Source: Kappaphycus alvarezii (lineage: Eukaryota; Rhodophyta; Florideophyceae; Gigartinales; Solieriaceae). Taken from it: a stretch of DNA of 64,000 nt. The stretch's first letter is position 1, and each line of letters opens with the position of its first letter. The notes under the pieces were generated by a model, which saw nothing but the letters and a program-made list of their open reading frames with translations, made no database searches and was not told where the DNA came from. The stretch covers positions 1,240,001 through 1,304,000 of the forward strand of contig NADL03000459.1 of NCBI GenBank assembly GCA_002205965.3. Reading direction: 5' to 3'. Positions 2,089-61,720 of this stretch are shown here, piece after piece. The translations under genes were made by a program, and so were the position numbers.

Positions 2089-3146
2089 TTAATAATGTAC
2101 TGCTGCTTGGTTTGCACGCATATGTTCTTGATTAGTTTTGACAGCCATTGCTAGACGGGGATTGTGGTTCTCATTTTCCTTCTGTTTTCTATTGAGCTTA
2201 AAATTTCTTCCATCTGTATTGTCCCAGCGAAGATCTGAAGTACGTCTATGCTTTTTGCAATGACTACAATTAGGTTTCTGTTTTGGATTATTTTCTTTGC
2301 CTAAAGCTGCCTTTATCTTTAGGCTTACCCCTTGACCATCTTCAATTAACTTCTTTTCTTTGTACTCTTTTATCAAGTTGTCGGTAAAAGCTTCCCAGGT
2401 TGCCTTTGATTCGTCCATGGTAAGAACTGCCGCAACAACTGCTTCGTACTCCTTATTTTCTTTAATAGATGAACGAAGCATTGCAACCTGCATCAGTTTA
2501 TTGAGGGGCTAACCGGCGTCATCAAATTGTGCGAATACACTCTCAAGGTTAGCGATATGATCTGACATTGATTCTATGTATGTCCTGCAAGTAAATGCCT
2601 CAGTGCATAAACTGAGCTTGTTGCTCGTAGTTTTGATGACATATCTTGAACATTTCTTTCCTACATGTCCTTCAGAGAATTGGTATGTTTTTGGACAGCC
2701 TTCAAAGGTTTGTCTCCTAGTGCTGTGACAAGAATTGCCGTAGCCTTTCTGCTTCGCTTATCGAAGTCAACTATTTTGACAATATTCTCACCATCTCCTT
2801 CTTCTGGTCGAGACTCATTTCTATAGATTATTTCAATACAATCCTGACTTTCAATAATTGCTTCCCTGCGAAGTTTCCAGACCCTAAAGCTCTCGGAGGG
2901 CTTATCACTGAATTTCGGGACTCGGTCTTCTCTAAGAGATTCCAATTCCCGCGACGCTACCACTGAAAAGTCAGCGCTTATCTCAAAACAAGAATTGTTA
3001 GGAAAGAAACAATACAAACAAAAACACTTTTTTAGTGGGTACGAATGAACTGAATTGTTTTTCTTTCTGTGTGACGTTAGGTTTTGAAAATTAGCACGTA
3101 TATTGTACCCTAAACAGTGCGAACTCGTGCATAACTTCGCAACCAC
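2089..3146 (-). pseudogene. Ty1/copia-type gag relic
   Basis: Two minus-strand blocks (3146 to 2661, then 2493 to 2089) read as the capsid part of a copia Gag. The first block carries a segment RKATAILVTALGDKPLKAVQ, close to the IIRGLGDKPLR segment of the copia Gag near 57.6 kb, so the two belong to related elements. The second block has a run resembling the Gag helix region (YEAVVAAVLTMDESKATWEAF), then lysine-rich sequence with a broken zinc knuckle, C-X2-C-X2-H, that lacks the final cysteine. About 170 bases between the blocks are out of frame or contain stops. No protease, integrase or reverse transcriptase follows downstream, so only the 5' part of the element survives. The family assignment is by resemblance and is fairly secure; exact limits are not. 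Confidence 0.6.
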
Positions 3147-3149
3147 CTC

Positions 3150-5180
3150 TTGAAGTAGACAGCGAACTAAAATTCATATATTCGATTGAAATCATACTGA
3201 CTTAGGTGATATATCTACCAATGGTCGGTAATTACAAATTATGTTAAATTAACGGACATATTTGAATCTCATTAGTACGAGTGAGTATGGCGTAACGCGG
3301 ACATGTTTCCTGGCATATAGGGCGTCACATTTGAATCTTACTGAGTCAGACCGTTCAGAGATCGTCCATTCTCAACAAAAATTGTTATTTAGAAGAGGGA
3401 GTGATTTGGTTCTTTAATTTTTGAAAAGTGCGGTTCAGAAGAGTGCATCCGCGGTTGAGTCAGATAATCACTTTCGTCCAATTCGGTCACTCAATCCTCA
3501 AAGTCCAAATCCACTGCGAACATACCTCAAAATGAGTGTAGTCCGAGAAGCCCAAGACGACACTTGATTTTTGACACTTGTAATTTTTTGCTCAATCGCT
3601 TCTTCATTTCTGAGGAGCGGAGGTAACTCAGGGCCCAACTTGTGGGCGCCAACCAGAAAGGTCCGTAGTATATTTATTTACCCTATCCTATTTAAAAATA
3701 CCTATAATAGTTTGGCATAAGAAAGATTTGAGGGTGACTATAACTGCCGAGCGGGCTAGGTTGGGAGTTAAAAAAAATTCCCCATATTTTCAGTCGACTC
3801 CTCATGACAAATTCAATTTTCACCTCCACCAACTTTTTTTCGGACAAGTCCAAACGTCCCAGATTCTTTGTTTCACTACAGCGAGACGACATTCAGCTCA
3901 ACAAGTTCGCTGAACAATACTTTCTCAGTACAGTGATAGATATTTCCGGGTTCAAGAACAAAATTTTTAGGTTGTAAATCTCTCCACATGTGCTTTTTAT
4001 TAGGTACCGTTAAGCGCTCAAATGGCTTTGGTGAAGAACCAAAATAAAAGCTGCAGTAGCTGTCATGTCCAATGCAGCCCTTCTTGATGGCTGGCCTGAA
4101 AGTAGCCTTTTAAGAAGCGTAGTTCCTTCCCCATTACTATGTCTGCACACCTTCTTGAATCGATTGTGGTTGTCTGGAAAAGTATGGGATAGATCGAGTA
4201 TATAGTCCAAAAGTAAAACACCCAAACATTTCCCAAAAATAAATAAACAGGGTTATTTGAAATATTGAAGAAGAGCACTTCAGAGAATTTTTCCAAGTTA
4301 AAAGACAGTTGAGGTGCCAAGAAGGGTTCTCTGATTTGCGTTTACTCGCAGGATATGGGGGCCAATTGGGGTGTACGTAATCCAAATTCTTCAGTGGTCA
4401 TGAGCTGAGTAGAACTCACACCTCGCGGTTTCTAGGCGGTGAGAAAGCTCCTGTTATAGAATTTAATGCGGTTTGAACCGCATTCAAGAAGAAGAAGAGA
4501 TTGGGACTGTATGATTCATTCGTTTCCTTGGGGAGATTTCTGCTTAACGAGAATATATAAACATTTTCAGAAGAACTGTTGGAATGTAGAGACAGAAGTT
4601 TGATTGAATGCAAGGGATATATGAGTTGTGATCAAATTAAAGCTTCCGGCGAGGTATCTCACTGCGGCTACGAAAGAACTAGGGACAACTTTATTGTACT
4701 TTATAGCACAGACATAACGAAAGAGCTAGTAGCTTTTTCAACGGACAGGCACTGTTTCAGGTGACTATCACGATGAAGTGTCGTTTATGAATGAATTTCC
4801 TCACCAGGGAACGAACTGCACAACGGCCCAGTGACAAATCTTGCCTTCTCTGACGAGGACTGCTTTTGGGCACCCAACGATAGTTACTTTTTAATACAGA
4901 AGATGGTCCTCCCCTCGTGTAGTCTAGCAACTTACAACGATCCCGCCCTGACTTCGCTCACCATCCTTTCCAAATTTGCCTACCATCCTCCTTAGATATT
5001 GTAATACTGTATCCTCTCCTCCAAATCAGCGTTTTACGTGTTTTTTTCTACCTTCTTCATCAAATTCACTCTTTATGTAGAAATTTCGCGCAAATGCGCT
5101 ACTGCAATTTCGATTTTAGCTTTTAAGTACCGACTCCAGTCTGCCTCTAAGGTTTACTTAAACACATTTTACCCACTTTT
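3150..5180. other. Intergenic DNA, no gene recognised
   Basis: Several short open frames overlap on both strands without recognisable domains. A small GAA run with an inverted AATGCGGTT/AACCGCATT pair lies near 4465-4497. From about 4900 the plus strand becomes pyrimidine-rich, leading into the gene at 5274. Confidence 0.45.
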
Positions 5181-36060: not shown

Positions 36061-37667
36061 CCGAAAAATGTTTGAGGTTCGCTACGCATTGATTTGGGAA
36101 TAGATGGTTCTTCAATCACTTGAGGTTATTTAACTTTTTTGTAAACAATGCTCCCTGGAAGCTGGTTACATGGAGTAGTGGTTCACTATTATTATGTCTA
36201 GGGGTATTAGTATGAGGACATAGTGCCAATGAAGTAATGTTTTTAGAATATCGATTGCCTCAAGACGTTCGGTTGCTGGCGCAGGCATGAACGGATCAGA
36301 TGTGGAGCAAAAGGAGCTACATGTGTTCTCTGCTTCCGCTTGAATGTTGTAGCATGGTGCAGTGTAAATAAATGTAACAGAGAGTAACTGACTTTTTCCG
36401 GTAAGATTGGGCTCTGCTTTGGTTTTTATTTCGGTATGGTGAATTTATTATTTGCGCTTGGATCTACTATTGTTCTCCTCGCTGATGCAACATCTCAATA
36501 GTGCGGGTAATACCATTCGCTTTGTTTGCGGATAATGCTTTTATACCAGGCGGGGAGTATTCTCTGCAAATAGCGGTATTAATATCTCTCCACCGTGGAG
36601 AATGGTCTTCTGAAGAATACTTCTTGAATGTAGATGGAATTGGAAGTGCGGAAAATACAAAGGTAAAATGATAATCGTTGTCTCTGGTGTCTATTTGACC
36701 ATTTCCCTCATATGAGGACATAGTTAAGGGCTATATTTTAAGTGAGAAATATTCTTTTGTTTCATTTTTTGCCAACCTATAGTTTTAACAGCAAAGAAGC
36801 TCGATTAAGACAAACTTTTCGGTAATTTTAGCGCTAGACAAGGTACAAGATACTTTATTCTACCTGACAGCCTTTGATTTTAGTGCCATTTTCCACCACC
36901 TATCTTTTAGTTGAATTATTTAGCCAAAATGATGTAGAACTGAAGCTGCTGAGCAACTATTTATTGTAAATCTATGTTTTTAGAGAATATTTCTAGTAAA
37001 TTTTTACGGGCTCCCAATTTTACTGTACATTTTTGTATGATGAAGAGGTTTTTCCTCACAGGAGGACAACGGTTGCATCACAGGAGGGCAGTGCTATCCT
37101 GGATAGAAACTGGAGGTCGGTAAAAAACCGTAACGTGCACAACACAAATTCCATAGTGACACTAAAAACCTGGATCACACAAAAGGTACATCTCAGGATT
37201 ACGGCGGCTATTTGGCGCGTCCTGACTGGCTCTGCTAACCCTAACCAAACAAAGCCAGAATTAAACTTCCATTTGTTGTCATTTCACTTTCCTTACAGCT
37301 TTCTGACAAAATATTCGAACCCATTGCTGAATTTTTCAGTCTTGTGTCCTTTTTACCTGCCTAAAAGACTTTGAGACCAACCGCTATTCAGTTGAACTTA
37401 TAAGTCCTTCGGTCTACTACGTCGGATTACCGACTGAAACACTTTACTGTACATGGTCACATTGGTGACTTGGCCGCAGGTCGAATTCGTGCGGTTTGCT
37501 GCACGAAGTGCGCCTCCTCGCACTTGAGTGAGGCGCCACCCCGCGCTTCCTGAACCGGACAGCGATGGGAGAGCGAGGCGAGAGCGCCCGCATGGGGAGC
37601 GGTTGCTCAAGTCGCCTTTTTCTTTGAGTCTTGAGTCTTGTGGTCCGCCGGAGGCCATGCCAAAATA
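36061..37667. other. Spacer, no gene recognised
   Basis: A minus-strand frame at 36,467-36,721 might be a further retroelement fragment but matches nothing clearly. A GC-rich patch at about 37,480-37,660 stands out from AT-rich surroundings just left of the Tc1 element. Confidence 0.35.
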
Positions 37668-37999
37668 CAGTGGTGGACAAAATTATAGGAAAAACAGAAA
37701 ATTTTAAAGGGTTCCTAGTATACGTCCACAGAAGAGCTCTTGAATACGCTACACAATGTATTCAGAGGCTGCGAATACGATAGCAAAGTTATATTTATAC
37801 TTTCTTTAATATTTGTGGAAATATTTGCTCCTCTCTATAAACAGGTGGACAAAAATATAAATATAAATACCCAAGTAGACGAATTTGGCGCTAAGAAAAG
37901 CAAGCCTTTACAAACTCTGATTTTCATCTTATCCGCAGCATTAAAAAGAACCAGTAGGTCCCTTCCCTGACTATCCCAGTGACCAAAAACGCGAATAAC

Positions 38000-38986
38000 A
38001 TGCCTCGAGGGAGTCACTTATCTGACAGAGAAAAAGACCTAATTTCGGCGTATTCAAATGGCGCAATGTCGCCCGAAGAAATCGCAGCCGCTCTCCACCG
38101 AAGTACCACAGTAGTCCGCAATTTTCGCCGCGTCTGGGAAAATTATGGAAATCTCTTCTCCCCCGGGCGACCCTAGAAACTCACTGATTGGGACAGGCGG
38201 CGGATTATTCGAGAGGCAAAGCAAGAGGGGAAAGGATCTCAATCCATAGTCAAGTCCCTCTAGCTTTCCATCAACCCTCGCACTGTGCCCCGTGTAATCA
38301 ATCAATGCCCGTTCATGACGTTTAAGAAAGTTATGACTACTCCAGCAATAAAGGAAAGGCACAAGCGAGACCGGAAGGAATGGGAGGTTGAAAAAATGGA
38401 CTGTAACGTGTGTGACTGGTCCGATGTGGTGTGTTCTGATGAGAAGAAGTTAAAAATTGATGGCTCAGACGGTTTGGCAGTAAAAAGGCAGGACAATAGA
38501 CAGGAAATTCCGAAAAGACGAAATGGGGGTGAAGGGGTGATGATATGGGCAGCATTTGCAGGGACAAGAAAAACAGATTTGGTTATACTCAACAGTGCGC
38601 AGAAAGACGCTGCGTATCTGCGCACGTTGCAAGATAATTTGCTACAGTTCGCTGAGGACGTGCCATTTTGCTGGACTTTTGTGCATGAAGGAGCCCCATA
38701 TCACCGAGGTAGTATTGTGAAATCGTGGCTAGAGGATGAGATTGTTAGAGTCATGTGCTGGCCTACATAATCCCCCGACATGAACCCTATAGAAAATTTG
38801 TGGGGTATTCTGGCCTGCCGTGTGTACGACAATGGCAGGCAGTTTGATAGCATTGAATCTCTTCTGGAAACGGTACAAGAATGTTGGTCCCAAATTGGCG
38901 ACGAGACACTCTCTGCTCTCGTAAAATCTATGCCTCGTAGATGTAAACTGGTCTACGAGAAGATCGGCGACAAGATTCCGTATTGA
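38000..38986 (+). pseudogene. Tc1-like transposase with three stop codons
   Basis: One frame runs from ATG 38,000 to the stop at 38,984 and is broken only by in-frame stops at 38,174, 38,261 and 38,768; no frameshift is needed. The N-terminus has a helix-turn-helix (LSDREKDLISAYSNG ... IAAALHRSTTVVRNF). The catalytic triad shows SDEKK with the first Asp, HEGAPYH where the family normally has QDNAPCH, so the second Asp is replaced by Glu, and DMNPIENLWG with the final Glu. Length is normal for Tc1 transposases (about 328 codons). It is therefore an inactive copy, cut-and-paste in origin. Confidence 0.85.
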
Positions 38987-39264
38987 AACAGGATTAAAGC
39001 GGGACATTTGCTATGCTTTTCCATTTCTATTTATAATATTGTCCATCAAGAATCGTTGATTTGTTCAAAACTTCCAAAATATTGAAGCAAATCGCATTCT
39101 GGGTTTTAATCTTGTTCAGCAGTGTGTGTGTAATCTTTACGGAAATTGGAAAAAGCATGTGGGAGAACATGCCGAGGGAGATTACAGAGAAACTAACATG
39201 CGAAAGGGGAAGAGAGAGGAACTAATCGGAAATGCATCTGGTAAGAACTTGACGCGCTTGCAAC

Positions 39265-39900
39265 CCATGCTAGCAGAACACAAAGCGCGTGATTAGGAGG
39301 TGCAGCTCCCACTGGGGAGTGGTGCCTCGACGGGCAGCAGCAAACGTAGGAAGGCGCCGGAAGAAAGTCGCACCCTCGGCCCCAAGGGCACCAAACGCAT
39401 CTATACCAACAGGAAGAAGGCGTATATCGTTCGTGTGGCAGACTAGACCGTAGTGCGTGTGTTTAGAACGTTCAGCCATTGAGGCAGCTGCGCCGCCAGA
39501 TAGGGCACACTGGGAAACGCGAGAAGTGACCTGTGGATGGGCCACTGTGACATCCAAAGTGATATCCTTCGGGTCGAGGCCATATGCACCAGGGATAAAA
39601 GGATCTATGCGAAGGGCGGACGAGGGAAAGGACGAAGGGGGAAGGGGAGGAAGCAGATGTTCAAGAGAGGCAGAAATTCCAAGCTCCTTACAGTAACGAT
39701 GGAGAGCGTTACGCAAGACATTGTGGCGACGAGTCTGCCCATCGTCGTACTTACAGGTGAGGGCATGTTTGCCCAGGGGATCGAGCAACGGGGCGATGTC
39801 GTTGGAACGGCGAGCACATACCGGACATCGATCATGACCAGAGAAAATCGCGCGGCCGAAGCGTAGCGAGACAGACACTATCCAGGCTTGCGAGGACAGA
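39265..39900 (-). pseudogene. Non-LTR retrotransposon fragment, family 2
   Basis: An uninterrupted minus-strand frame from 39,878 gives a zinc-binding motif (CPVCARRS ... GKHALTC), an RRHNVLRNAL helix, and the nuclease core RIDPFIPGAYG ... DITLDVTVAHP, followed by helices ending WELHLLITRFVFC. The Cys/His cluster followed by an acidic-core DVTV motif is the arrangement of the C-terminal restriction-like endonuclease of non-LTR elements. The same family appears decayed at 52.2 and 61.1 kb. The reverse transcriptase is missing, so this is a 5'-truncated insertion, lying inside the Tc1 element between its transposase and right terminal repeat. Confidence 0.7.
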
Positions 39901-40030
39901 TAGGTGCCGCGGTGAGGGTTTTCAGCAGTAAAAAATGCGTCAGTACGCGTTAATAAACCCGCTATTGCTTAAAATTTGAAGCAGTTGTTTTATACTTTCT
40001 GTTTTTCTTATAACTTTGTCCACCACTGTA

Positions 40031-41910: not shown

Positions 41911-43462
41911 CCGAACTATACGGTTAAGATCTAACCGGATGTACTTCGTCGTCCGTGCGCATCGGTGCTCGCGACAGGATAGCTTCAGCGATGGAGGACC
42001 AGAGGGTGCAACTCAGTCGCTGGTAGATACGGCGGCGGACAATGCCAACTGTCGAGTGACACTTGGACGCGATCCGCGGAACTAACTCCTCGATAAATGC
42101 AATAGTTCCAGGGGAAGGGGCACCTAGGGAATCAAATGCCAGAGGTCGAAACGTGAAGTTCGGCGTGTAAGGCGCAGAAGATGGGCCAGTCGATGGAGCG
42201 GGGAGGCGTCGGGCGATGTTGCGTTCCAGGGTTGTAACCTTGTCGCGGGCCGCCAGTTCAGCAGCGCCTCCGGCAACCTGGGTCGCCTTGGTGCGAACTG
42301 CTGCCTTGAACGGTGAAACGACGGTGATGTCACAGGCAATGGGGCGCAACGTTGTGCCTTCCAGGGTTGGTGGTGGTTGTTCAAGGATATCGGCGGGGCG
42401 GAGCTCAGTGCCCGGGACGAGGAACGGAACCTCTTGCCGAGTATCCAGACCCGCGGCGCGGGTAACGTGCGTCGCAATCGGATTACATAGCGAGTTGTGG
42501 CGGTGACGACGGCCGAAACCAGGGCAGCAGAGATCGGCGGCGTGATCCCCGAGGGTGTCCAAGGGGTGGTCACAGTGGTGGCAGTTGAGGGCCATGGAGT
42601 CATCATACACTGGCAGTCCGAGGTGACGGCGGAGCATGGTCTGCCAGTGTGTAGTGTGGACCTTCGTAGCTGCCGTGGGGTGAGCGAAGAGAAGCGCCGC
42701 AGCAGGGCTGCGGCGGAACGCTAAGCCACGGATGCGATGTCGAATGTCGGCGTCGCTATGGGCGGTCGGGTTTGGGGCATTCTCCCAGGAGTTGTCGTAC
42801 CAATGTACTCTTGCCCGCGCCTCTTGCTGCACCCGTTTGAGAAGGGTTAGTGTGTTGGTGGGTGAAGCAGCTAGAGTTGGAGGGTCAAGGGTGGAAAGGT
42901 CGACTATTCCGGGGATGGAGAGGGCGAAGCGGCGGAGAGAAGGCCCAGCCTGACGGAGGAGGAAGGACCGGTCGCCGCGGTAGCGGCCAGAAGCAAGTGC
43001 ACAAGCACGCGGCGTGGCGTATGCGGAAGTTCGCTGCCGTGCCGGCGCAGCATCAATGATGCTGGCGGCGGCAGCGCCGTGGAGGCACGAGGCGATGCTT
43101 TCGAAGCCCTGACCTCCGAGGTGCATGGGGAGGCACACTTGGTCCCAGGCTCGGTCCTTGAGAGCTATGCCGTGTAACTTTTCATATGATGACCGTTGTA
43201 GATCATCAAATTCTTCTGCGGCGGACTCTGCTAAGCGCGGATCTGAGAGCTTGAATGCATGCGATAGGAGGCATGCAGAGGCACAGATCCGGTGCATGTG
43301 GAACCGGGCGCGGACGTCGCGGACCAGCAGGAGGCGGTCCAGGGTACGGCGGCACTGAGCAATCTTAGACCGGAGAAAACTCTCCGTGAAAGTTTTGTTC
43401 CCAATGGGGGCCCGTGGTAACTTTATGGCATCAGTAGAACGGGTGTCCGCTGCAGGATCCGA
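41911..43462 (-). pseudogene. Non-LTR retrotransposon, RT thumb and endonuclease, family 1
   Basis: One frame is open from 43,462 to the stop at 41,924 (512 codons). It starts inside the reverse transcriptase: AIKLPRAPIGNKTF is the GxPxG-type block after the catalytic palm, followed by thumb-like helices with LLLVRDVRARFHMHRICASA and the QVCLPMHLGGQGFES block. Then comes a zinc-binding motif (CHHCDHPLDTLGDHAADLC), HRHNSLCNPI, and the PD-(D/E)XK-type core LRPADILEQ ... RPIACDITVVSPF, ending with LAFDSLGAPSPGTIAFIEEL and a VHPVR tail. The restriction-like endonuclease nicks target DNA and the missing upstream RT copies the RNA. 5' truncation at 43,462 is typical of LINEs. The non-coding tail to 41,911 matches tails at 7.2 and 43.5 kb. 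This is the best copy of its family here. Confidence 0.75.
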
Positions 43463-43513
43463 CTATACTGCTAGCTAAGTGCTAACCGGGTGGTCCACGT
43501 CGGCCACGTGCAG
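43459..43513 (-). repeat. LINE family-1 3' tail, extreme 5' truncation
   Basis: Read on the minus strand this runs from CTGCACGTGG through CACCCGGTTAG to ATAGTCGG. The same series closes the family-1 copies at 7,200-7,250 and, more loosely, at 41,911-41,960. It abuts the FG-GAP gene on one side and the next LINE copy on the other, so the FG-GAP frame ends in LINE sequence. Confidence 0.65.
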
Positions 43514-43921
43514 CGACACACTCCATTTCATTTCTCATGAGCCGGTAACTACCGGTAAATTCCCGACGCAATCCGTGACCCACAATGTAATCGACGCGCC
43601 CATCGAGGTCGTAGTCCACGGCCATTACATTCGCCCCTCGAGTGGTGGCGGGTTTGGTGGTCCGGGGATCGACCCTGCGGAAGGTGCCGTCTCCCTGATT
43701 CAACAGCAGCACATCCGGCCCTTCGAATGTCGTAACTAAAACGTCAACGTAGCCGTTGTTATCAAAATCCTCTGCAGCCACACCCATACTGTCCGTGTCA
43801 GTTGGAATCCCCGCCGTTGCCGACACTTCCTCGAAAAACCCGCCCTCATTCCTCAACAACACATCACCATGTTCAGGTACTGCCGGCGGCCCTCGAGGAG
43901 TCACTAAATGCGAACGTGCCC
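43514..43921 (-). pseudogene. FG-GAP repeat protein, 3' portion
   Basis: This minus-strand block continues the frame of the 5' portion (47,306-48,391) after removal of the LTR-flanked element. It encodes two more FG-GAP/VCBS-type calcium-binding loops, EDFDNNGYVDVL and VDYDLDGRVDYI, each followed by the LLLNQGDGTFR-type strand of a beta-propeller blade. The frame then runs into the LINE tail at 43,513, so the natural C-terminus is lost; the reading MRNEMECV is the last host-like sequence. Confidence 0.75.
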
Positions 43922-44180
43922 TGAAACAGGTTTAGTGACCATTGACCTCGTCTAATGCTAGCAGGTTGCAGCCACTGGGTTCGGACGCCCCACATCCAGA
44001 TGATTGTGAATTTATCTGTTTCTAATGTCACTGTCGACAGTACTTGAACGGATGAAGGGGCGTGAGGTGATAGGTCATTGCAGCATTTAAGGCTTGAATG
44101 GATGAAGGAGATGGCATGAATAGAGGATTGGAGGTATCGGTTTTCAGATGGAGTAAAGACCATGTTCCTCTGTTGTTTCA
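43922..44180 (+). repeat. Left LTR-like direct repeat
   Basis: 259 bp, TGAAACA...TGTTTCA. Same orientation and near-identical sequence to 47,040-47,305, lacking seven bases near position 44,155. Confidence 0.85.
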
Positions 44181-44181
44181 C

Positions 44182-44197
44182 TGGTAGCATCGCAACA
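44182..44197 (+). promoter_or_regulatory. Putative tRNA primer-binding site
   Basis: TGGTAGCATCGC starts two bases after the left LTR. The first eight bases fit the complement of the 3' end of animal- or yeast-like initiator methionine tRNA (GCUACCA end); the rest diverges. Confidence 0.5.
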
Positions 44198-44744
44198 AGT
44201 CTCGGCGAATGAGAGGTTGTCGGTAGGAGGAAAAGTCCAGGACCGGTCCATGCTGCGTGGTATGGGACGCGTAGTATGCAAAAAAAAGTTATGGTCTACC
44301 GAAACTGGAGTGCCAGTTTAGGTTGCCCATCAGCGTCTGTGATGGCGTTTGTATTGGGTCTTTTTCTCAGGCTGCTCGGTCGTGGAATAGACGAGGAGGC
44401 TGCGTTGAAAAGCCCAGCGTTGAGCGAAAGGCTCAAGTTTGCAAAGACGTGGGGTTACGTTGAAAAGCACGGCTCCAGGCAAGAGGCTCGGAGAACGTGG
44501 AAGCTACGGTTAAACGCTGTGTGTTTTCTGTCGGGACAATACAGAGTCGCATGAACCCAGCAAGTGATGAACTGCCGATTAGCAGTGGCTGGGCTGCTCA
44601 GAACAATGGCGGAGAACCTTAATTTGGCCGGATGACATTTGAACTTGAATTGGAATGAGCCTGTGACCGGCTTGGAATGGGTCTTCGATAGGCTCTCTAG
44701 AGAGCTTCTCCAGCACTTCTTGATGTTAACAAATCGAGTGCCCG

Positions 44745-46867
44745 TTGGAAGAGGCAAACATTGTGCACTACATAAAAAAAAGAAAAAAAAACCAAGGACT
44801 TGGTGCAAGATATTACAAGAAGGGTATCCATACGCCTTCCGATGTTACGAGGACAGGCCGCGAGGTCGGCCCTCACTGCCGAACTCACCAAAGCGTCACC
44901 ATGTCCCGGGCGATGCCTACCGCCTTCCGTCATTCGTACAACGCTTTTGTTTGCCACTTTCGTCTGTTCACCACCATAAGTGCTCAGCCCGCGTGTTTAT
45001 CAGCTTCTTCAGGCGCGCCTGTTGGTAAATCCTTTCGTTCAAATCTTCTCCGTATTGACAAACGGCCCTTTTCGCGGTTTTGCTTGTTACCAATCAAGCG
45101 CGCGATTACGGTGTCTTGTACCGAACCGCCCCGTGGGAAGCCGGATGCGCGACAGAACGGGCGTCTACCATCTTTCGAAGGCGCCGGCGTCAGGGTTGCT
45201 CGAGAGTTTGTACAAGGCGAGAGGATTGATGATGATGTGCGTTGGAAAAGGGATGAGACACTTGATTCGCTTGCACAAGAGCTCGTAGAACTACATGAAG
45301 AACTTCAAGACGCTTTGGCCTCAAAAAGTGAAGTATACGTCGCTCAAAGGAAAAAAGGCGCTCGTGTAGAACATCTTGGCCATGGTGTTTACGTGCAATA
45401 CGGTGTACAAGCACTTGATACTGATGGCCTAGAAGGTAAGACAGCTACCATCACTCGTGAAGAAAGTCGGAGTTGCGTGCGTCATGCCCTGGACGCATTG
45501 CAGAATCGCTTTAGGGTTGCAGTTACCGGTCAGCCAGGTATTGGCAAGACTCGGGGATCAATGATGTATGCGATCCAGTGTCTTCTTTACCACAAGAGTG
45601 CTGTGTTGTACGCTGGGTACAAGTCGGAGAAAATGCTGCTGTTTTTACCAAAAGAAGACGGTAAGTACCGGGTATGGAGAGGAACGACCGACGATTTCTC
45701 CCGTTCACAGTTCAAGCAGGAGCAACGCGTGGTAGCGATCATTGATCCTCCGGAAGAAGGGTCGTATTCGTCAATGGGTGAGTGCCGAGTTCTCAAGTTT
45801 GTTTCAAACAATGCGGAAAAGCATTTTCGGAACTGGGAAAAAGACGGCACTCTACTAGTGACGTCGATGCCTACGGAAGAAGAGGTCCTAGCTATGACGA
45901 GAGTTCTGTGGGACGATGAGAAGTCTTCGCACCCATGGCAGATCGGTGAACTAAATACGATGGAACAGAAGATGAGCGAAGTCGAGAAAAGAATTGAGCT
46001 CGTTGGAGCTATTCCTCGTCTTGTATTTGACTCGGGACTGTTTTTGATGCAGTCTGTGAGCACGTACAAGGCGCTGCTGAGGCGGGAGAAAAAGTTTCTG
46101 ATTTCGATCTGTACAAGGCATTGCGTGGAAAGTACTCAACATTCCTCGCGAAGCATCCTGCTTCCGCTTCGTCAAGACTTTTACTTTTGAATCCAAAGAC
46201 AGTGAACTACCACACATGGAAAGAACGAAGGATGCAGCGTCCCACATTCCAGCTGACACCCATTGCGACTCTGGTTCTTCGTGACCGTCTGGAGAAAAGC
46301 ATTATTGCAGTGAGGACGGAAAACTTTGAGGACTTTGCTTTTGACTGGCTTTGTGAGACTAAAGGGAGAAAAGCAGAAGTTCAGTACGTTTCAGAGGGTA
46401 ATCATGACACTGCGTACCAAAGAATCGCTTCAATGGACCGGAACGAGCTTCGAGTGTATCGCCCAACTGCGGGCAACTTTCCGTTTATTGATTTTGCCAC
46501 GGGTTGCACAACTTGGTACAACGCTAAGTCCATTGGGAAGGGCGTCAAAACAGTGAAAGTTGACGAAGACGGAGCGAGAAGATTCCTTGATAATCTGGAA
46601 AGGGTATTAGTGGCGAACAATTCTTCTGGTGACATCCAAAGCATTGTAAGGCACAGCAACCCTGTGCTTACCGTCCTAACCAATGGTAACACAGAGCCAA
46701 CGTTACGCGACCCGACAGCCGCGTTAAACCTTTTGGGTGCGCGAGTGATTCTGAGGGTGGTGAACGTCTCTGAGATGTCTGCAATTGGAGAGCTGTTGGA
46801 TCGCATTGATCGAACGCAGGTACTCCTTAGTGAATTGGAGAAACAGGTTGCCGGAGGCCTGCGTTGA
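44745..46867 (+). CDS. Crinkler/RHS-like P-loop NTPase with C-terminal nuclease-like domain, frameshifted
   Basis: The first frame runs 44,745-46,190 and the second from about 46,094 to the stop at 46,867; they join at a run of five A at 46,089-46,093 by one lost (or two gained) bases. Using ATG 44,745 (another ATG at 44,901 is possible), residues 262-269 are a Walker A motif GQPGIGKT. IIDPPEEG at about 332-339 suits Walker B or the following loop. A coiled-coil-like stretch lies near residues 170-195. The second frame contains LRVYRPTAGNFPFIDFATG, resembling the P-x-hD core of the restriction-endonuclease-like domain that follows the NTPase in Crinkler and RHS proteins. Those proteins are known as secreted or nuclear effectors in oomycetes, fungi and trypanosomes and are often tied to retroelements. 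I see no clear Crinkler header domain. Class assignment is by motif order; substrate and activity are unknown. Confidence 0.6.
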
Positions 46868-47039
46868 GCGCTCCCCGGTAGTGTAGTAACGAACAAGGAT
46901 ATGTTAACGACGTTTTGGATTTGTACTCAGTCTCGACAGGATGTGGGAATGTGATGCCCTCGAGTAGAAATGAGACTGTGCCTTTTTTTGGTGTGAGAAT
47001 GAATTGACGCGGACGTCAATTGATGTGAGGTGCCTATGG

Positions 47040-47305
47040 TGAAACAGGTTTAGTGACCATTGACCTCGTCTAATGCTAGCAGGTTGCAGCCACTGGGTTC
47101 GGACGCCCCACATCCAGATGATTGTGAATTTATCTGTTTCTAATGTCACTGTCGACAGTACTTGAACGGATGAAGGGGCGTGAGGTGATAGGTCATTGCA
47201 GCATTTAAGGCTCGAATGGATGAAGGAGATGGCATGAATAGAGGATTGGAGGTATCGGTTTTCAGGTGGAGTAAGGTCTTTAGACCATGTTCCTCTGTTG
47301 TTTCA
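47040..47305 (+). repeat. Right LTR-like direct repeat
   Basis: 266 bp, TGAAACA...TGTTTCA, carrying an extra GGTCTTT-type 7-bp segment relative to the left copy. Confidence 0.85.
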
Positions 47306-48391
47306 TGCACGCGCAATGTACAAATCCATTAACCCGTCATTGTTATAATCTAGCTCCGTTACGGCAGATACTGAGCGTCTGAGGTCGCGAAAATCAAACC
47401 ATACAAACCTGGTGATGTCTACAAATGAAAAGGAATCAATCATCGGGAACACACGGAACACCGACAAGTGAACTACATCCATGACTCCGTCATTGTCAAT
47501 GTCCGTAACAATGGCACGTACCTCGTTCACCTTTGCGAGACCAGGGACTGACCGGAGGCTGTAGTTGCCCCTGATATTTTGGTACGCAAAATGTTCCAAG
47601 TCTGAGTTTCGACCCAAAAAGTTAACCACCAAAAGGTCGGGGCCACCTCCGTTTCTCCTCCTCTCGAGCCGTGTCTGTAGCGAGAGGTGCGCAAATACCG
47701 GGACCCGTCCACGTGAGGCCGCTTGACCAAAGCCGAACTGGTTCGTGATGTCGGAGATGGAACGGTCTAGTTTGGTAAGGAAGATAAAAGGGGGACGGAG
47801 GTTTGCGCCGCGGCCACCGCCGACGGAAACGGCGATAATTTTCTCGTTGGTGCGAGCGGATCGGGCGGCAACTGAGACGCCATGAATGTCAGAGCGAAGG
47901 GAAAAAGAGGAAGGGGTGAACGTGCCATTGGAAGTGCCGAAGAAGAGACGCTGAGGGGAACGGTTATGTTAGGTGAGGAGGAAATCGTAATGGCCGTCAG
48001 AATCAATGTCGGCGATAGTAGCGCCACCGAATTGCTCGCTGGAAGTAGGCTGTGTGATGCCAGATTCGGAAGTGACATCCCTAAAGGAGGTCTCGTCGTC
48101 ATCTTGTGATGGTGATGAGGGAGAGTTGGATGTTTGAGTTGGTGTCGGCGTTAGCGTTAATGAGCGCTCTGTGGTTTGGGTTAGGAGCTCTAATGCGGAA
48201 GTGGATGGAGATGCGCTTGGTGTCGCAGGGGATACAATTGGTAGTGAGCTTTCTATTGGAGTAGTAGAAACTGGTGCGAAAAACGGAAGTTCAGCATCTT
48301 CCTCAGGCGGCTGAGGAGTTGTTGACAGAGTTAATTGGGCTGTCGTAATGGAGACTAGTGTGCAAATGAGCAGGGAGAAGTAGGAAGGCAT
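47306..48391 (-). pseudogene. Secreted FG-GAP repeat protein, 5' portion
   Basis: The minus-strand frame starts at ATG 48,391 with a signal peptide (MPSYFSLLICTLVSITTAQ), then a serine/threonine/proline-rich linker to about residue 95. FG-GAP/VCBS blades follow, with calcium loops ADIDSDGHYDFL, TDIDNDGVMDVV and LDYNNDGLMDLY. Such seven-bladed propellers act in adhesion or extracellular enzyme-like proteins. A single in-frame TAA at 47,969-47,971 falls between FLLT and HNRSPQR; the frame is otherwise open to 47,306, where the LTR-flanked element begins. With the stop, the insertion and the LINE tail at the 3' end, the gene is dead in this copy. Confidence 0.75.
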
Positions 48392-49158
48392 TGTTTCTTC
48401 GTTGTTTGTGAAAAGTTACGTTTTGATAGTTGATCGAACGGGCGATGATAGTTCACGTGCGGGCAGAGTACGGAGATGAATTATCCTAGTATATGTAATG
48501 CCGAAGTTCAACAAGTGAGGGATCGATTAGACTTGAAGTCATCGAGGAACAAAGCATATGTTAATGCTGTGCCTCGGGTCCAGCAAAAGAACGGAAATGA
48601 AGCGGCGTGGCCGAAATAATCTAATCTTGCTGTGTCATTTCCATAGCGCCCTGGTTACACTCATCGCTCTCATTCTCTTCGAATGAGGAAAACCTCCTTT
48701 CTGCGGATCCAAAGGTTTCATGCTCAATTCGTCAATCTTCATTGCTGGCATGCTGCCTTACTGAATACGCATCGACATAAATAACATGTTTACAGTGATA
48801 TCATACGATCCCTCTCCAATGCCAATGTCGTATGATTAAAGGAGAGAACACCGCATGCGGTAACAACGGGACTGTACTGTAGTTGTAGGATAGTCACTCT
48901 GGCAAAAGCATCTTTTTCTACGCGACTACTGTAACTCCATGAACCTTTGCAGTTCGATACGCAACATTTTCTTCGTTCGGTAAAATACAGCGAGCAGTAG
49001 CTGCAAGCATACTGGCAGCTCACATTCAGAGGTTCCATCAGACCGAAAAATGAGTTCACGGATTTCCAACTCAACATGAATAGCCTCAGAAACCAATGTA
49101 GTAACCATTACGGTGCACTTATTGTCGCAAGTGATCTCGGATCCTATTAGCCTACATA
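48392..49158. other. Spacer upstream of the FG-GAP gene
   Basis: Would hold the FG-GAP promoter; no motif singled out. A GACTGTACTGTAG site lies at about 48,871. Confidence 0.4.
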
Positions 49159-49342
49159 CAGTGCGGTGCAAAAGTATAGACTCAAATGAATTGAGAAAAA
49201 TATTAAAATAAGCCAGATATATTGTGTACCACAAAAATCGTCTTTAAAAGCTGAGTAGAACAGCAGCATTTTTTAAAGAAAACAAAAGACAGTACCTGTG
49301 GGAATAAAAAAGTGATTTTACCAGTGCAAAAATATAGACTCA
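49159..49342 (+). repeat. Left terminal inverted repeat
   Basis: 184 bp; outer site at 49,164-49,182 and inner site at 49,324-49,342 share GTGCAAAA.TATAGACTC. Confidence 0.85.
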
Positions 49343-49457
49343 AGAAATGTTTGAGATTGTCAAGTGGCGGGAAATGCAAACAGAATGTACAAATGCATAC
49401 CAAAAGACTCTCCTCGCCTCTCTCCAGGAATCCGTTGCGTTTCAATGCATTGCAATC

Positions 49458-50454
49458 ATGCCGCAGCAAAAGCGACTCACTGCAGAAGAGCAAGCATCAA
49501 TTTTAGCCTTGCGCAATGCCAAACTCACCACAAGGCAGATATCCGATCAGTTGAAGCGCTCTCAAACTGTCGTTGCACGCTTTCTCAAGGATCCAAAGTT
49601 TTATGGATCCAAAAAAAGAAGTGGTCGCCCATCCAAGATACCACCCGCCGCAAGGAGGCAAATCGTTCGAGAAGCAAAATGATCTGGACACAGTTCCAAT
49701 CGCATCAGGCAAGACTTGCAGCTTCACGTTTCGAAGCATAGCGTCTTAAGAGTACTGCAAAGTAGCCCTGAGCTGGCTTACAAAAAAATGAGGACTACTT
49801 TCTATCTTACGGAACATCACAAAAAGGAGACATTGAACTGGTGTATGGAAAAGGGGAGCATGATCATTCTTTTTGGAAGCAAATCATTTTATCTGACGAG
49901 AAGAAGTTCAACGTGGATGGTCCCGATGGTTGCGCATACTACTGGCATCAAGTAGGCACTGAAAAACGTATTTACAGTAAGCGTCAGCAAGGTGGTGGTG
50001 TTCTCATGGTTTGGGGTGTTTTTCTCACTACGGAACTTGTGATCTTATCTTCGTTGAGGGTCGAATGAACTCTACAAGGTATCAAGAGGTTCTCAAGAAT
50101 CATTTGTTGCCATCGGCTGCCAGGACACATGGCGAATCTTGGACATTTCGACAAGACAACTGTCCGATTCATGTTTCTAACTCTACCAAGGCCTGGTTTA
50201 ATGAAATTTCTGTCGATGTTTTGGAATGGCCATCAAGGGCTCCTTACTTGAACCCAATCGAGAACCTATGGGGGATCGTCGCTCGCCGGGTTTACCAGGA
50301 TGGAAAGCAGTTTTCATCCTTGGTAGATTTGAAAGAGGCGATTCTCAAGGAGTGGTCCCTCATTTCTGAAGAGCTCCTCCAGAATCTGGTGAAATCAATG
50401 AAACGTCGCATTTTATCTATTGTTAGCCGTTGTGGGGCAAAATTTTCATATTAA
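49458..50454 (+). pseudogene. Tc1-like transposase, DD34E, frameshifted
   Basis: Starting at ATG 49,458, the protein has an N-terminal helix-turn-helix (LTAEEQASILALRNAKLTTR), a GRPSK hook between the two DNA-binding modules, and the catalytic motifs SDEKKFNVDG, FRQDNCPIH and YLNPIENLWG, giving D, D and E with 34 residues between the last two. All three acidic residues are kept. Damage is a TGA at 49,680, a frame change near 49,845-49,860 and another near 50,010-50,030. The catalytic residues surviving with only three lesions suggests a younger death than the 38-kb copy. Confidence 0.85.
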
Positions 50455-50492
50455 GACCTCTAAAGGCTTATTGTTTGAGAATAAATGTGATC

Positions 50493-50677
50493 GAGTCTAT
50501 ACTTTTGCACCGGTAAAATCACAGTTTTTATTCCCACATGTTCTGTCTTTTGTTTTCTTTAAAAAGAATGCAGCTGTTCTACTCAGCTTTTAAAGACGTT
50601 TTTTGTGGTACACAATATATCTGGCTTATTTAAATGTTTTCTCAATTCATTTGAGTCTATACTTTTGCACCGCATTG
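50493..50677 (-). repeat. Right terminal inverted repeat
   Basis: 185 bp, complement of the left arm with about a dozen differences. Confidence 0.85.
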
Positions 50678-51029
50678 TACATGTACATACAGTTCCACGA
50701 ATGAAAATTACCCTTGGAATTAACGTCGTATAGTACTAATGCTTGTCCTCCTTTTCTAAGACCTCAGCGATTACAGTCACTTCTGCCTCACTTGTTGACC
50801 AGTAAAACACTACAAACTTCCCCCTTTCTGCCAAGGGGGAAAGCTTTGGGTGTTTTACCCTTGGAAGATACATCCGATCTATCCCAAGTCATTGCCCTTT
50901 TGGCAATGACTTGTCTCCTGCGAAACAGTGTGGTCTATTCAATATTTCGCTTTTCCATAGCTTTTGAACAAAAGTCATAGTTTCTTCCAGTGGAATACCA
51001 GTCCCTGCCTCACTGAAATGAAAATTTCA

Positions 51030-51805
51030 CACTTCAAAAAAGTCATCCCTGAATTGCCACGTATAAGCTGGCTAGTTCCTGCGCCTATTTCTGCGCTCAG
51101 AGGCTGGCATTCGGCGGTGTCCGCCGTCGTTAAGGAGCTCGTGACAACTGTCGCCACTCACGCAATGGGACGGGTTTCGAAGATGCAAGATATTCTTTTG
51201 CTGCCCTCCGCAGCGTTTCTCGAAACTACAGTATTCAAGAGTTTCGAGAATACCGTTTTCCGGATCCATCGCTCTCCGACCCTGGCTCTGTTACCTCCCT
51301 CCCTCCCGTTGAGCGCCGCCGACATACTGCCCAATTTCTCAGGCAGGTGTCTGGTGATGCCGAACCCTCCAACACAACACTGCGTCTAGACATGTACATA
51401 GCGGACTCCGAGTTTTCTGCTTCCCCGCATGGATTCGATGTCTCTGTCATCAGCCCGCATTCCTCCTCCTACGCTCATGCTGGCCCTACATCTCACCTGG
51501 TCAAGACGGAAATTGAAAAACAACGTCATTATGCAGGCCTGTGCGCCCACTATGGCATTGAGCTCCACCCCATAGTGGATGATGTTTATGATGGCATTGG
51601 GTCTGGTTTCGAAATGGGTGCCCAGCAGGTAGCCAATTTCAACGCTGCAAAGAATGGTAATTCGCCAGCGTCCGAAAAAGCGAAGCTACTCACCAGCCTT
51701 ATTTGCTTCGTCGTTCACTACACTGCTGAGTCCGTAATTTCCCCTTGCCTTCACCAGGGGCCCTACTGGATAGTGGGCTTTCCTCCATTTTTATCCTCCA
51801 AGTAA
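51030..51805 (+). pseudogene. Non-LTR retrotransposon fragment, family 3
   Basis: A first frame (about 51,030-51,389) contains VVKELVTTVATHAMGRV, also found as a relic at 6.6 kb. A second frame (51,347-51,805) gives LRLDMYIADSE then FDVSVISPHSS, KTEIEKQRHYAGLCAHYGIE and VYDGIGSGFE. This follows the endonuclease-core order of families 1 and 2 (R-x-D ... hDVTVxxP ... EKxxHY ... hhG-hG), but the sequence is distinct. The zinc-binding part is not clear. At least one frameshift separates the two pieces and the reverse transcriptase is absent. Confidence 0.5.
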
Positions 51806-56063: not shown

Positions 56064-57941
56064 GTATTCAACTACTTGATCACTGTGGAGCTTGTGAACC
56101 ATGTATGCAAATCGCCGTTAAAACCACGGCAGAGATGGGCTGAAAGTGCTCAACACATCGCTCTTCTTCGCAATTGGGTAGACCGCTGCGTAACCATTGT
56201 ACTCATCTACATACGAGACGATGTACAGAGAACCTCCAAGTGAGGCTGTGGAAATCGGTCTACAGACATCAGAATGTATCACATGAACAACTTGAATAGC
56301 CCTATGGGCTTTGTCATGAATGGAGAGTCTCACATGCTTTCCCTTGATAAAATCTGCGCATATGTGCTCTATCCGCTTGCCGGGAGTGATACTAAGACCT
56401 TTTATCGCACCTACTCGGTTCATCTGCCGAATGCCCTTGATATCAGCATGTCCAAGCCTCTTTTGCAACAGGAACTCATCCTTTTACATGGCTACACTTG
56501 CTCTGGCAGGCTGATAATTATTGCCATGATCACCATCGTTAGAGTCCGAGTCATCGCTGGACTCCGCTGTTACATCATCATTAATCACAAGATGCCAATT
56601 GATATGATAGAAACCTTCCGTATTTTGACCAGTCATACTGGTTGAACCATTCAGTACTGTACTGCATTGCACCTTCCAGATCTCGAGCTAAATCGAACTG
56701 TGAACCCATGCCCACAAAGTCTAGGGACTGATACCAAGTCTGTAACCAAGTCCTCCACATGCAGTGCATCCGAAAACCTATTGAAGCGCCTCCAACTTTG
56801 AGCGCCATGCCTTATGTAGCCGCAGAGCAAGATATCTCCCTTCATGATTGTGGTGAAAGTATCCTATTTCCAAGCACAATCCTGTTTAATGGGATGGATC
56901 TCCAGCTGAACAGAAACCTAGTGTCCTTAACCATGTGGTCAGATGCCCCAGAGTCAAGTATGATGGAAGAATTTTCATCAGATGAAGATCTGATAGACGA
57001 ATTTCCGTCATATCCAGAAGATGACGATTTTCCCCTTGCCATAAACACTTTGGCCTTCCAGGTGTCGCCGTTCTTGGTCTTAGAACCAAACTGTCGATCT
57101 GAGGAGCTGCCTTTTGCCTTCTCCTCACGTTGCTCAAGATCAGAGCAGTCATTGGCAATAATTCCCTTCTCACCACAACGGAAGCACGAACGCTTCTCCA
57201 CGAACTTGTGGCCACCACCCTTTCCATCCCACTTTTTATTGGCAGAAATAGCCTTCCTTTCCTTTTTGCCAGATTTAACACCGAGTAACCAGCTCTTGTC
57301 CTCATATTCTTGCAAGAGCTTCGCCGAGACGGCCTCCCAGCTCAAGTTGTCCTCACTAGTCTGCAGTGCAGTCACAGCGCTGCCATATGAAGACCTGCCC
57401 GTATCACCAAAGGACACCAGCAATGTAGCCACTCGAACTTCTTCTTCTCTGAAACACTGTATTGCCTCGGTTCAGTTTTAAATCTCCTCGAATGCCTCAA
57501 TATATTCCGCCACTGCCTGAGCGCTATACCTTAAACTGTTCAACATAGACAACAGTTGCACTCTCTTGGCAACATTCGACACATTATACCGCTCGGAGAG
57601 CAGCTTCCACATACGTACGGATCTCTCGTCTTCATGATGCAAGTTCTCAAAGGCTTATCACCGAGCCCACGAATGATCACCTCACAGACATCGTCCACCT
57701 TTTGCTCCAGCCCTGCCTCCAACGTCCCAGTGGTGTTCCCAACGATGTCTTCATCCACTACGTTGAACACTGCCCTGGCCCTGAGAGAAGTTTTAGTACG
57801 ATCTTTCTACAAATAAAAGTCCTCGCCTGGCTTTCCATGGAACTTGTGCACTCGCTTATAGTCCTCCATCACAGCACACCACAGCAACCATATTCTTGCC
57901 TCACGACAGTAACACACACGCAACAGCGTCTCACGAAATGA
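56064..57941 (-). pseudogene. Ty1/copia gag-protease-integrase relic
   Basis: Reading leftwards from 57,941: Gag (YKRVHKFHGKPGEDF, then VIIRGLGDKPLR and YVWKLLSERYNVSN), Gag C-terminal part with zinc knuckle CFRCGEKGIIANDC (C-X2-C-X4-H position replaced), protease ILDSGASDHMV with the D-S-G active site at about 56,960, the GAG-pre-integrase part KRLGHADIKGIRQM, and the integrase start VIHSDVCRP ... GSLYIVSYVDEYNGY with the first catalytic Asp. A decayed HSDQVVEY at about 56,070-56,095 corresponds to the second Asp region (rSDnG-Ey) and is cut off by the hAT end at 56,063. Multiple frame changes break it. Its 5' LTR and primer site lie at 57,994-58,546, and the reverse transcriptase is lost. 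Confidence 0.75.
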
Positions 57942-61129: not shown

Positions 61130-61720
61130 GCCTCTACCGTGCTTTTAAAGAGGTTTCACTATTGTTGGCACTCTATGCACATATGGGATCAAGGAAGTTG
61201 GGATCGTCGCCCTCGTCGAACATCCGCTCCTCTACCAAGTTCCCAACTCATCTGGGCATTCGGAGTCCCCCGCGCTACGAATGGACATTTACATACCCGC
61301 TGCGTACGGGCTTCACAGTTCCGATGTCGCCGTCGACGTTACTGTTGCCCACCCCCCGCACGCCGCCACATTTCGCAAAGTATGGTTACAGCAGGCGCTG
61401 CCGCAACACTCGCAGAGCGCGAGAAACATTGTCATTACGGCACTTACTGTAACCAAAACGATATCTTCCTCTCCCCCGTCGGGATTGATATCTATGGCGC
61501 CTTGGGCGACGACGGCTAGGGTTTTTTCCGCCGCCTTGCTTCCTTCGCTGCTTCCCGTCGCGGTTCCTCCCCCAACAGGAGCTCCGCAACTTCGTTACCC
61601 GTTTTGCATTTAGTCTCCAAAAAATGCAGGCGCGACAGGTTTCTACCCGCCGCCCGCATTCGTGGCTAATTTATGAATACCCTCCGCACGCCTCTGTGCG
61701 ACATTGTGCAACCCGTAAAG
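61130..61720 (+). pseudogene. Non-LTR retrotransposon fragment, family 2
   Basis: Frames give a degraded VGIVALVEHPLLYQVPNS segment, then RMDIYIPAAYGLHSSDVAV and DVTVAHPPHAATFRK, GIDIYGALG-like sequence, and NFVTRFAFSLQKMQARQV, following the 39-kb copy in order. Three frame changes were counted. The zinc-binding part is missing or unreadable. The probable 3' tail follows at 61,736. Confidence 0.6.

Follow-up and report, generated by a model that had tools for sequence, protein, structure and literature searches.

A 64,000-nucleotide stretch of the genome of the red alga Kappaphycus alvarezii (contig NADL03000459.1, positions 1,240,001 to 1,304,000; hereafter the window) very probably harbors a nonautonomous long terminal repeat (LTR) retroelement in which a resident gene of the Crinkler/RHS type (CR) is the sole recognized gene. 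The element spans 3,384 bp (43922..47305). Secreted effectors are the main setting in which proteins of this kind are known; in this case the gene belongs to a mobile element devoid of the usual copying genes. A passage of CR proteins from mobile elements to secreted toxins is proposed in PMC5289972. This transposon-to-toxin link becomes testable with a CR gene that is the single recognized gene of a dispersed LTR family, in which some LTRs are near-identical and the ratio of nonsynonymous to synonymous substitution rates (dN/dS) is low. No paper describing a CR gene within an LTR element was found among open-licence full texts.

Anatomy and insertion of the window element

Direct-repeat comparison delimits a 5′ LTR of 259 bp (43922..44180, plus strand) and a 3′ LTR of 266 bp (47040..47305, plus strand). 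In 259 aligned bases the two show 2 substitutions, and a single 7-base indel makes up the rest of their difference. Their identity ends exactly at the inverted TGAAACA...TGTTTCA termini, and the pair is the sole direct-repeat family of at least 40 nt that a repeat search detected in the window. One base after the 5′ LTR lies the primer-binding site TGGTAGCATCGC (44182..44193, plus strand), the reverse complement of an initiator tRNA-Met 3′ end plus CCA, with 12 of 12 positions complementary to the host tRNA. The element is flanked by TGCCC (43917..43921) and TGCAC (47306..47310), a target-site duplication matching at four of five positions; the chance of at least 4/5 for one random pair is ~0.016. 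An earlier, sequence-only reading of this DNA had described an LTR retroelement with TG...CA repeats, an initiator-tRNA-like primer site, and a near-perfect 5-bp duplication. All of these features are confirmed in the window, with the qualification that a perfect duplication, lacking here, is seen in seven of the nine full-length copies checked.

That reading also placed the element inside a host gene, and reconstruction of the empty site bears this out. The gene encodes FG-GAP repeats on the minus strand; its upstream part occupies 47306..48415 (Pfam FG-GAP_3, 1.1e-7 in 47306-47968) and its downstream part 43485..43921 (FG-GAP_3, 2.8e-18 in 43485-43931). Removal of the element together with one 5-bp target copy reopens the frame across the junction, whereas removal with 4 or 6 bp does not, and FG-GAP_3 matches the joined protein at full length over the junction (residues 66-141, profile 1-61).

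Pfam gave no hit to gag or pol in the interior ORFs scanned in the window copy; instead there is a P-loop protein of the Crinkler/RHS kind that the sequence-only reading had proposed, with a Pfam RHSP match. The leader (44194..44900, plus strand) has no recognized gag, its ORFs giving empty Pfam scans. In the other full-length copies, absence of gag-pol was judged by length alone (3.0-3.5 kb). The coding region is followed by a 3′ untranslated tail (46868..47024, plus strand) and by the polypurine-tract position (47025..47039, plus strand), where GTGAGGTGCCTATGG is weakly purine-rich; a related subfamily, termed C below, has the better GTGGGGAGTCTATAG.

The CR gene and its protein

The sequence-only reading had treated 44,745-46,867 as one ORF. 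CR coding sequence is indeed there, split between two frames as ORFs 44745-46190 and 46031-46867, which were searched separately in the family scans. The window copy is broken between its two parts, and some sister copies are open. A programmed frameshift joining these ORFs was weighed and not adopted, since no canonical slippery heptamer was seen by eye and some sister copies are open.

The first part (44901..46190, plus strand) comprises a variable N terminus and a P-loop NTPase matching RHSP (4.4e-6, Pfam) and, below cutoff, Trypano_RHS (7.2e-6, NCBIfam). For the whole ORF 44745-46190, RHSP passes the Pfam cutoff (6.3e-6; 26.3 bits versus 25), and nSTAND3 stays below its own cutoff (0.0024). 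The Trypano_RHS match of the window protein scores 24.5 bits against a cutoff of 89.75 and spans Walker A to the IPR motif. RHSP is above cutoff in the window copy and at loci L012, L014, L041, and L037, and at cutoff in L018; proteins of all three subfamilies described below are thereby represented, the best match (1.9e-7, profile 2-193 of 312) being in subfamily C. Trypano_RHS values range across copies from 1.5e-7 to 2e-4, all under the curated cutoff. The motifs of the P-loop part are Walker A GQPGIGKT, a Walker B aspartate, TSMPTEEE, and VGAIPR; four aligned natural copies share GQPGIGKT, the aspartate, TSMPTEEE, and IPR without variation.

The second part (46031..46867, plus strand, other frame) carries FEDFAF...FIDF...WYNAKS, and FEDFAF, the FxDF aspartate, and WYNAKS do not vary among the same four copies. 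The residues E477, D531, N541, and K543, invariant there, may be read as a putative PD-(D/E)xK nuclease site. These motifs make the C-terminal part a probable PD-(D/E)xK-like nuclease. No Pfam family match was obtained for this ORF at E 5, NCBIfam gave one unrelated subthreshold match, and neither a nuclease profile in Pfam/NCBIfam nor a credible PDB relative was found for the C-terminal part. Of the two domains previously proposed, the P-loop NTPase is upheld by profile and the nuclease is read from motifs. Single-sequence structural models of the two window ORF pieces, made without relatives, reached pLDDT values of 33-35 and were not used.

The label "effector-type" given by the sequence-only reading is not supported, as no delivery header (Ubl/LFLAK) was recognized: the N-terminal 110 residues have no Pfam match, and LFLAK was not seen by eye. 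RHS genes are known as sites into which retrotransposons insert, and the CRNs of oomycetes carry a delivery header; here, the CR gene lies inside the LTR element and a delivery header is not recognized. CR proteins and trypanosome retrotransposon hot spot proteins, as covered in PMC5289972, likewise join a P-loop NTPase to a probable restriction-endonuclease-like part and are linked to mobile elements. Searches with the P-loop piece or the LTR pattern returned no match in viral contigs, GTDB contigs, or plasmids, collections from which records near the window's own genome may have been left out; PADLOC gave nothing and PHROGs weak matches only.

Copies and target sites across the genome

The host assembly (336,021,096 bases in 884 contigs) contains at least 40 LTR matches (the best 40 of 137 candidates), many ~3.1 kb apart. 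Twenty LTR loci (L009-L028) were fetched and compared with the window element. Thirteen have CR units, with leader, coding sequence, and tail in the same order; six are LTRs alone, and one (L026) is an LTR plus a decayed end. Copies of the window type (subfamily A) are ~96-99% identical to the window element over the end of the coding sequence and the tail and, in most, ~97% over the leader (82% in C669); the first part of the coding sequence is 84-95% identical in most. Over the tail alone, the A copies are ~98% identical. One further locus (L056) has a leader match without CR, and in L052 no LTR pair was found.

All nine full-length copies checked, at separate loci, contain the CR gene, in interiors of 2.5-3.0 kb, and the search for further TGAAACA...TGTTTCA copies proposed in the earlier reading recovered both the 5-bp duplications and the same gene inside. 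The duplication is perfect in seven of the nine (ACAGA, GATGT, GTGGG, CACCC, TGTGG, CTCGG, and CAGTT, the last read from the flanks) and 4/5 in the window copy and C446. Solo LTRs behave alike: of four assessable duplications, TGCTG, GGTAT, and GAGAC are perfect and one is 4/5, the first LTR dinucleotide being altered in the GAGAC case. L025 and L027, which match the LTR partially, were left out of this count. The sequence-only reading had also suggested that the nuclease makes its own insertion breaks. Conservation of a D...NxK motif speaks for such a role, but the TG..CA ends, the 5-bp duplications, and the arrangement of LTRs and primer site are those left by an integrase, and the nine targets differ in sequence, making nuclease-driven mobility very improbable.

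Primer site, initiator tRNA, and candidate helpers

From TGGTAGCATCGC, an initiator tRNA beginning with AGCATCG was predicted; the derived pattern occurs at nine places in the genome (one lacking a base) and at none in a reversed control. ARAGORN called tRNA-Met with anticodon CAT for both of the two matches fetched. The LTR end plus primer site was found at 52 genome places with no more than two mismatches (control, 0). At 34 of the 52, the same strand carries a CR match at a downstream distance of 780-2183 bp, which falls between 913 and 946 bp in 26 of these 34. Exact primer sites are followed by a CR match in 27 of 32 cases, against a chance of ~0.0003 per site.

The same primer site was also seen at six loci (L047-L051 and L057) that contain Ty3/gypsy-type LTR elements. 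L049 has Pfam matches to RVT_1 (6.2e-31), RT_RNaseH, and an integrase zinc-binding domain; L048 has rve under cutoff. L047, L050, and L051 were read as gypsy on the basis of their LTR pairs and ORFs; Pfam gave no match for the single L047 ORF that was scanned. The gypsy 5′ LTRs terminate in TGTTTCA and start with TG(T/C)AACA in 4/6 loci and TGTAATA in L050, the start in L049 being unseen; in the 3′ LTRs of L047 and L049, CGTTTC occupies the place of the terminal motif. These Ty3/gypsy elements have the primer site and 5′ LTR end in common with the CR elements and, unlike them, carry gag-pol. The gypsy of L057 (C484:269100-276800), recognized by tblastn, has this primer site too and is inserted into the tail of a CR element of the C type, flanked by the duplication CCATT, the only perfect 5-bp duplication read among the gypsy loci. 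An LTR pair 7.2 kb apart on C484 was examined as an autonomous partner and rejected, as it reflects this gypsy nested in a CR element.

The terminal and primer-site resemblances make the Ty3/gypsy elements plausible helpers of the CR element. We consider it likely that resident Ty3/gypsy elements with the same primer and similar LTR termini would act in trans on CR-element RNA, packaging, reverse-transcribing, and integrating it. Large retrotransposon derivatives and nonautonomous LTR elements with trapped DNA, as presented in PMC6431247, similarly place LTRs around other DNA that replaces much of the coding sequence and are under 10 kb; they are moved in trans, as is likely here. The DNA inside those elements is incidental, whereas the CR elements hold one conserved gene with low dN/dS in three subfamilies.

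Arrays and mosaic copies

Head-to-tail CR units sharing single LTRs occur on C312, C523, C204, C588, and C467. Units of subfamilies A and B are mixed in arrays at L014, L015, and L043 (C312), L009 and L044 (C523), L016 (C204), and L017 and L046 (C588). The arrays on C312, C523, C860, and C63 have one common flank and were therefore not counted as independent; they probably represent a single locus, as its alleles or duplicates. Such head-to-tail units with common repeats would be expected if the "LTRs" were mere spacers in a tandem CR gene family and the window copy a stray unit. That view is contradicted by solo repeats with 5-bp duplications, the clean insertion into the FG-GAP gene, and a primer site matched to the initiator tRNA, and we give it almost no credence.

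Copies are strongly mosaic. Measured against C474, codons 1-110 and 431-655 diverge little in most A copies (synonymous divergence, dS, 0.01-0.08), and codons 111-330 reach dS 0.3-1.6 in most; C446 is close to C474 throughout, and C669 and C860_a diverge in codons 1-110 too. Among 18 A and B units, 140 of 153 pairs have 55-codon blocks both at ≥99% and at ≤85% identity, array units not being independent. The N termini of A and B are unrelated; that of B (L038, L041) opens with a hydrophobic, signal-like stretch and looks like an exchangeable header. Template switching or recombination would mix segments in this manner and yield LTR-sharing arrays.

Subfamilies, selection, and the role of the CR gene

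A protein search, from which the best 126 scored of 322 candidates were taken, gave at least 131 CR matches in at least 84 clusters on at least 55 contigs. Six more CR loci were inspected; L037, L039, L041, and L042 each have their own LTR pair and 5-bp duplication, and L038 and L040 have a 3′ LTR only within the stretch examined. Three subfamilies can be distinguished that differ in their LTRs and share a common layout. Subfamily B has a different first LTR half and a C-terminal half ~73% identical in DNA, and subfamily C has a 271-bp LTR with coding parts ~77% (first) and ~67% (second) identical. Across the LTR pairs seen, the TGAAACA...TGTTTCA ends are kept (one 3′ end is decayed), the adjacent primer site is retained (in one case with a mismatch), and the CR gene holds the same position.

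For all 15 pairs of six natural ORFs, dN/dS is 0.19-0.39 at dS 0.19-1.53 (Nei-Gojobori, whole length). The set includes two C ORFs, one without the usual N terminus and one partial, and L038, for which the 3′ LTR alone was seen. Because three subfamilies share the layout and dN/dS is this low, the CR gene gives the impression of having long resided, under selection, in at least three LTR subfamilies rather than of a recent capture. The sequence-only reading had also entertained a captured host gene mobilized in trans; movement in trans is likely, whereas a recent capture would not fit a gene with the appearance of a long-term selected resident. Gene-capturing LTR elements likewise contain cellular-type genes, some under purifying selection; they carry many genes (672 and 1,343), whereas here one resident family occupies a diversified LTR lineage.

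Several observations weigh against an element-resident CR gene mobilized by gypsy machinery. In the reverse direction, a primer site lies upstream of only 34 of the 84 CR clusters listed (32 of 57 long ones), so that some CR genes may be LTR-free; the other clusters include decayed and truncated copies, array units past the listed sites, and perhaps such LTR-free genes. Most copies are broken, with 2 of 18 units clearly open to the normal end in one set and 3 of 6 in a second set of loci. C619 has identical LTRs (0/247 differences) yet an in-frame stop in the CR gene, so the protein is perhaps dispensable in cis. The polypurine tract before the 3′ LTR is weak in subfamily A (GTGGGGAG in subfamily C). 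No autonomous element with the LTRs of the CR element, the related partner sought in the earlier reading, was found among the loci fetched, where gypsy elements with similar termini were seen. Blastn detected no similarity of gypsy L047-L051 to the window element; their likeness is therefore one of termini and primer site only, which may reflect use of the same host tRNA. Selection, finally, could partly precede residence if CR modules were captured repeatedly.

These points bear on a passive-capture scenario in which host CR genes are picked up as inert cargo and selection is confined to the host donors. LTR elements with captured genes are reported from rice and sorghum in PMC3726574; most CR copies are broken, their segments differ in origin, and no upstream primer site was found for 50 of the 84 clusters listed. 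Against inert cargo, three subfamilies that differ in their LTRs hold the same gene at one and the same position, and dN/dS is 0.19-0.39 at dS up to 1.53. A search, not exhaustive, identified no LTR-free donor, and we regard passive capture as unlikely. Equally improbable, in our judgment, is that the protein serves the host, for instance in defense against elements or viruses, with the element as a spreading and diversifying vehicle. Low dN/dS, the variable middle, unrelated N termini, and LTR-sharing arrays would suit such domestication. Against it, a broken gene is common even in copies whose LTRs are near-identical, and no fixed LTR-free copy was seen.

A possible though somewhat doubtful further step is that the CR protein, produced from the element, acts on nucleic acid and favors spread or retention of the lineage. 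A bolder and more tentative proposal is that the CR NTPase-nuclease serves a selfish LTR element of a separate kind, dependent on gypsy helper machinery, which would use a polymorphic, recombination-shuffled CR protein to bias how it spreads or what becomes of helper, host, or rivals. Were this true, CR "effectors" elsewhere would descend from such element genes. The role of a CR NTPase-nuclease for retroelement or host and the shuffling of its variable segments thereby become accessible to study.

Host gene and other elements of the window

The FG-GAP gene has an in-frame stop of its own (47969-47971, minus strand), located in an FG-GAP repeat ~660 bases upstream of the insertion, and may therefore have been a pseudogene already before the element arrived. 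An ORF at 41927-43462 (minus strand) adjoins the downstream end of this gene and may have cut it short; by eye it resembles the C terminus of a non-LTR retrotransposon, and it has no Pfam match. The same resemblance was noted by eye for ORFs 39273-39968 (likewise no Pfam match), 51134-51802, and 61149-61610.

The window also contains other mobile sequences. A Tc1/mariner-like element at 49157-50679 has inverted repeats starting with TACAGTG and a DDE_3 match (1.9e-9) inside. At 37666-40030, an inverted-repeat pair (TACAGTGGTGGACAAAATTATAG) surrounds an ORF with a subthreshold DDE_3 match and an unrelated ORF on the opposite strand. Two decayed copia-type fragments, at 56121-57471 and 2092-3173 (both minus strand), have subthreshold gag, zinc-knuckle, and Pol_BBD matches and an ORF that resembles an integrase by eye.

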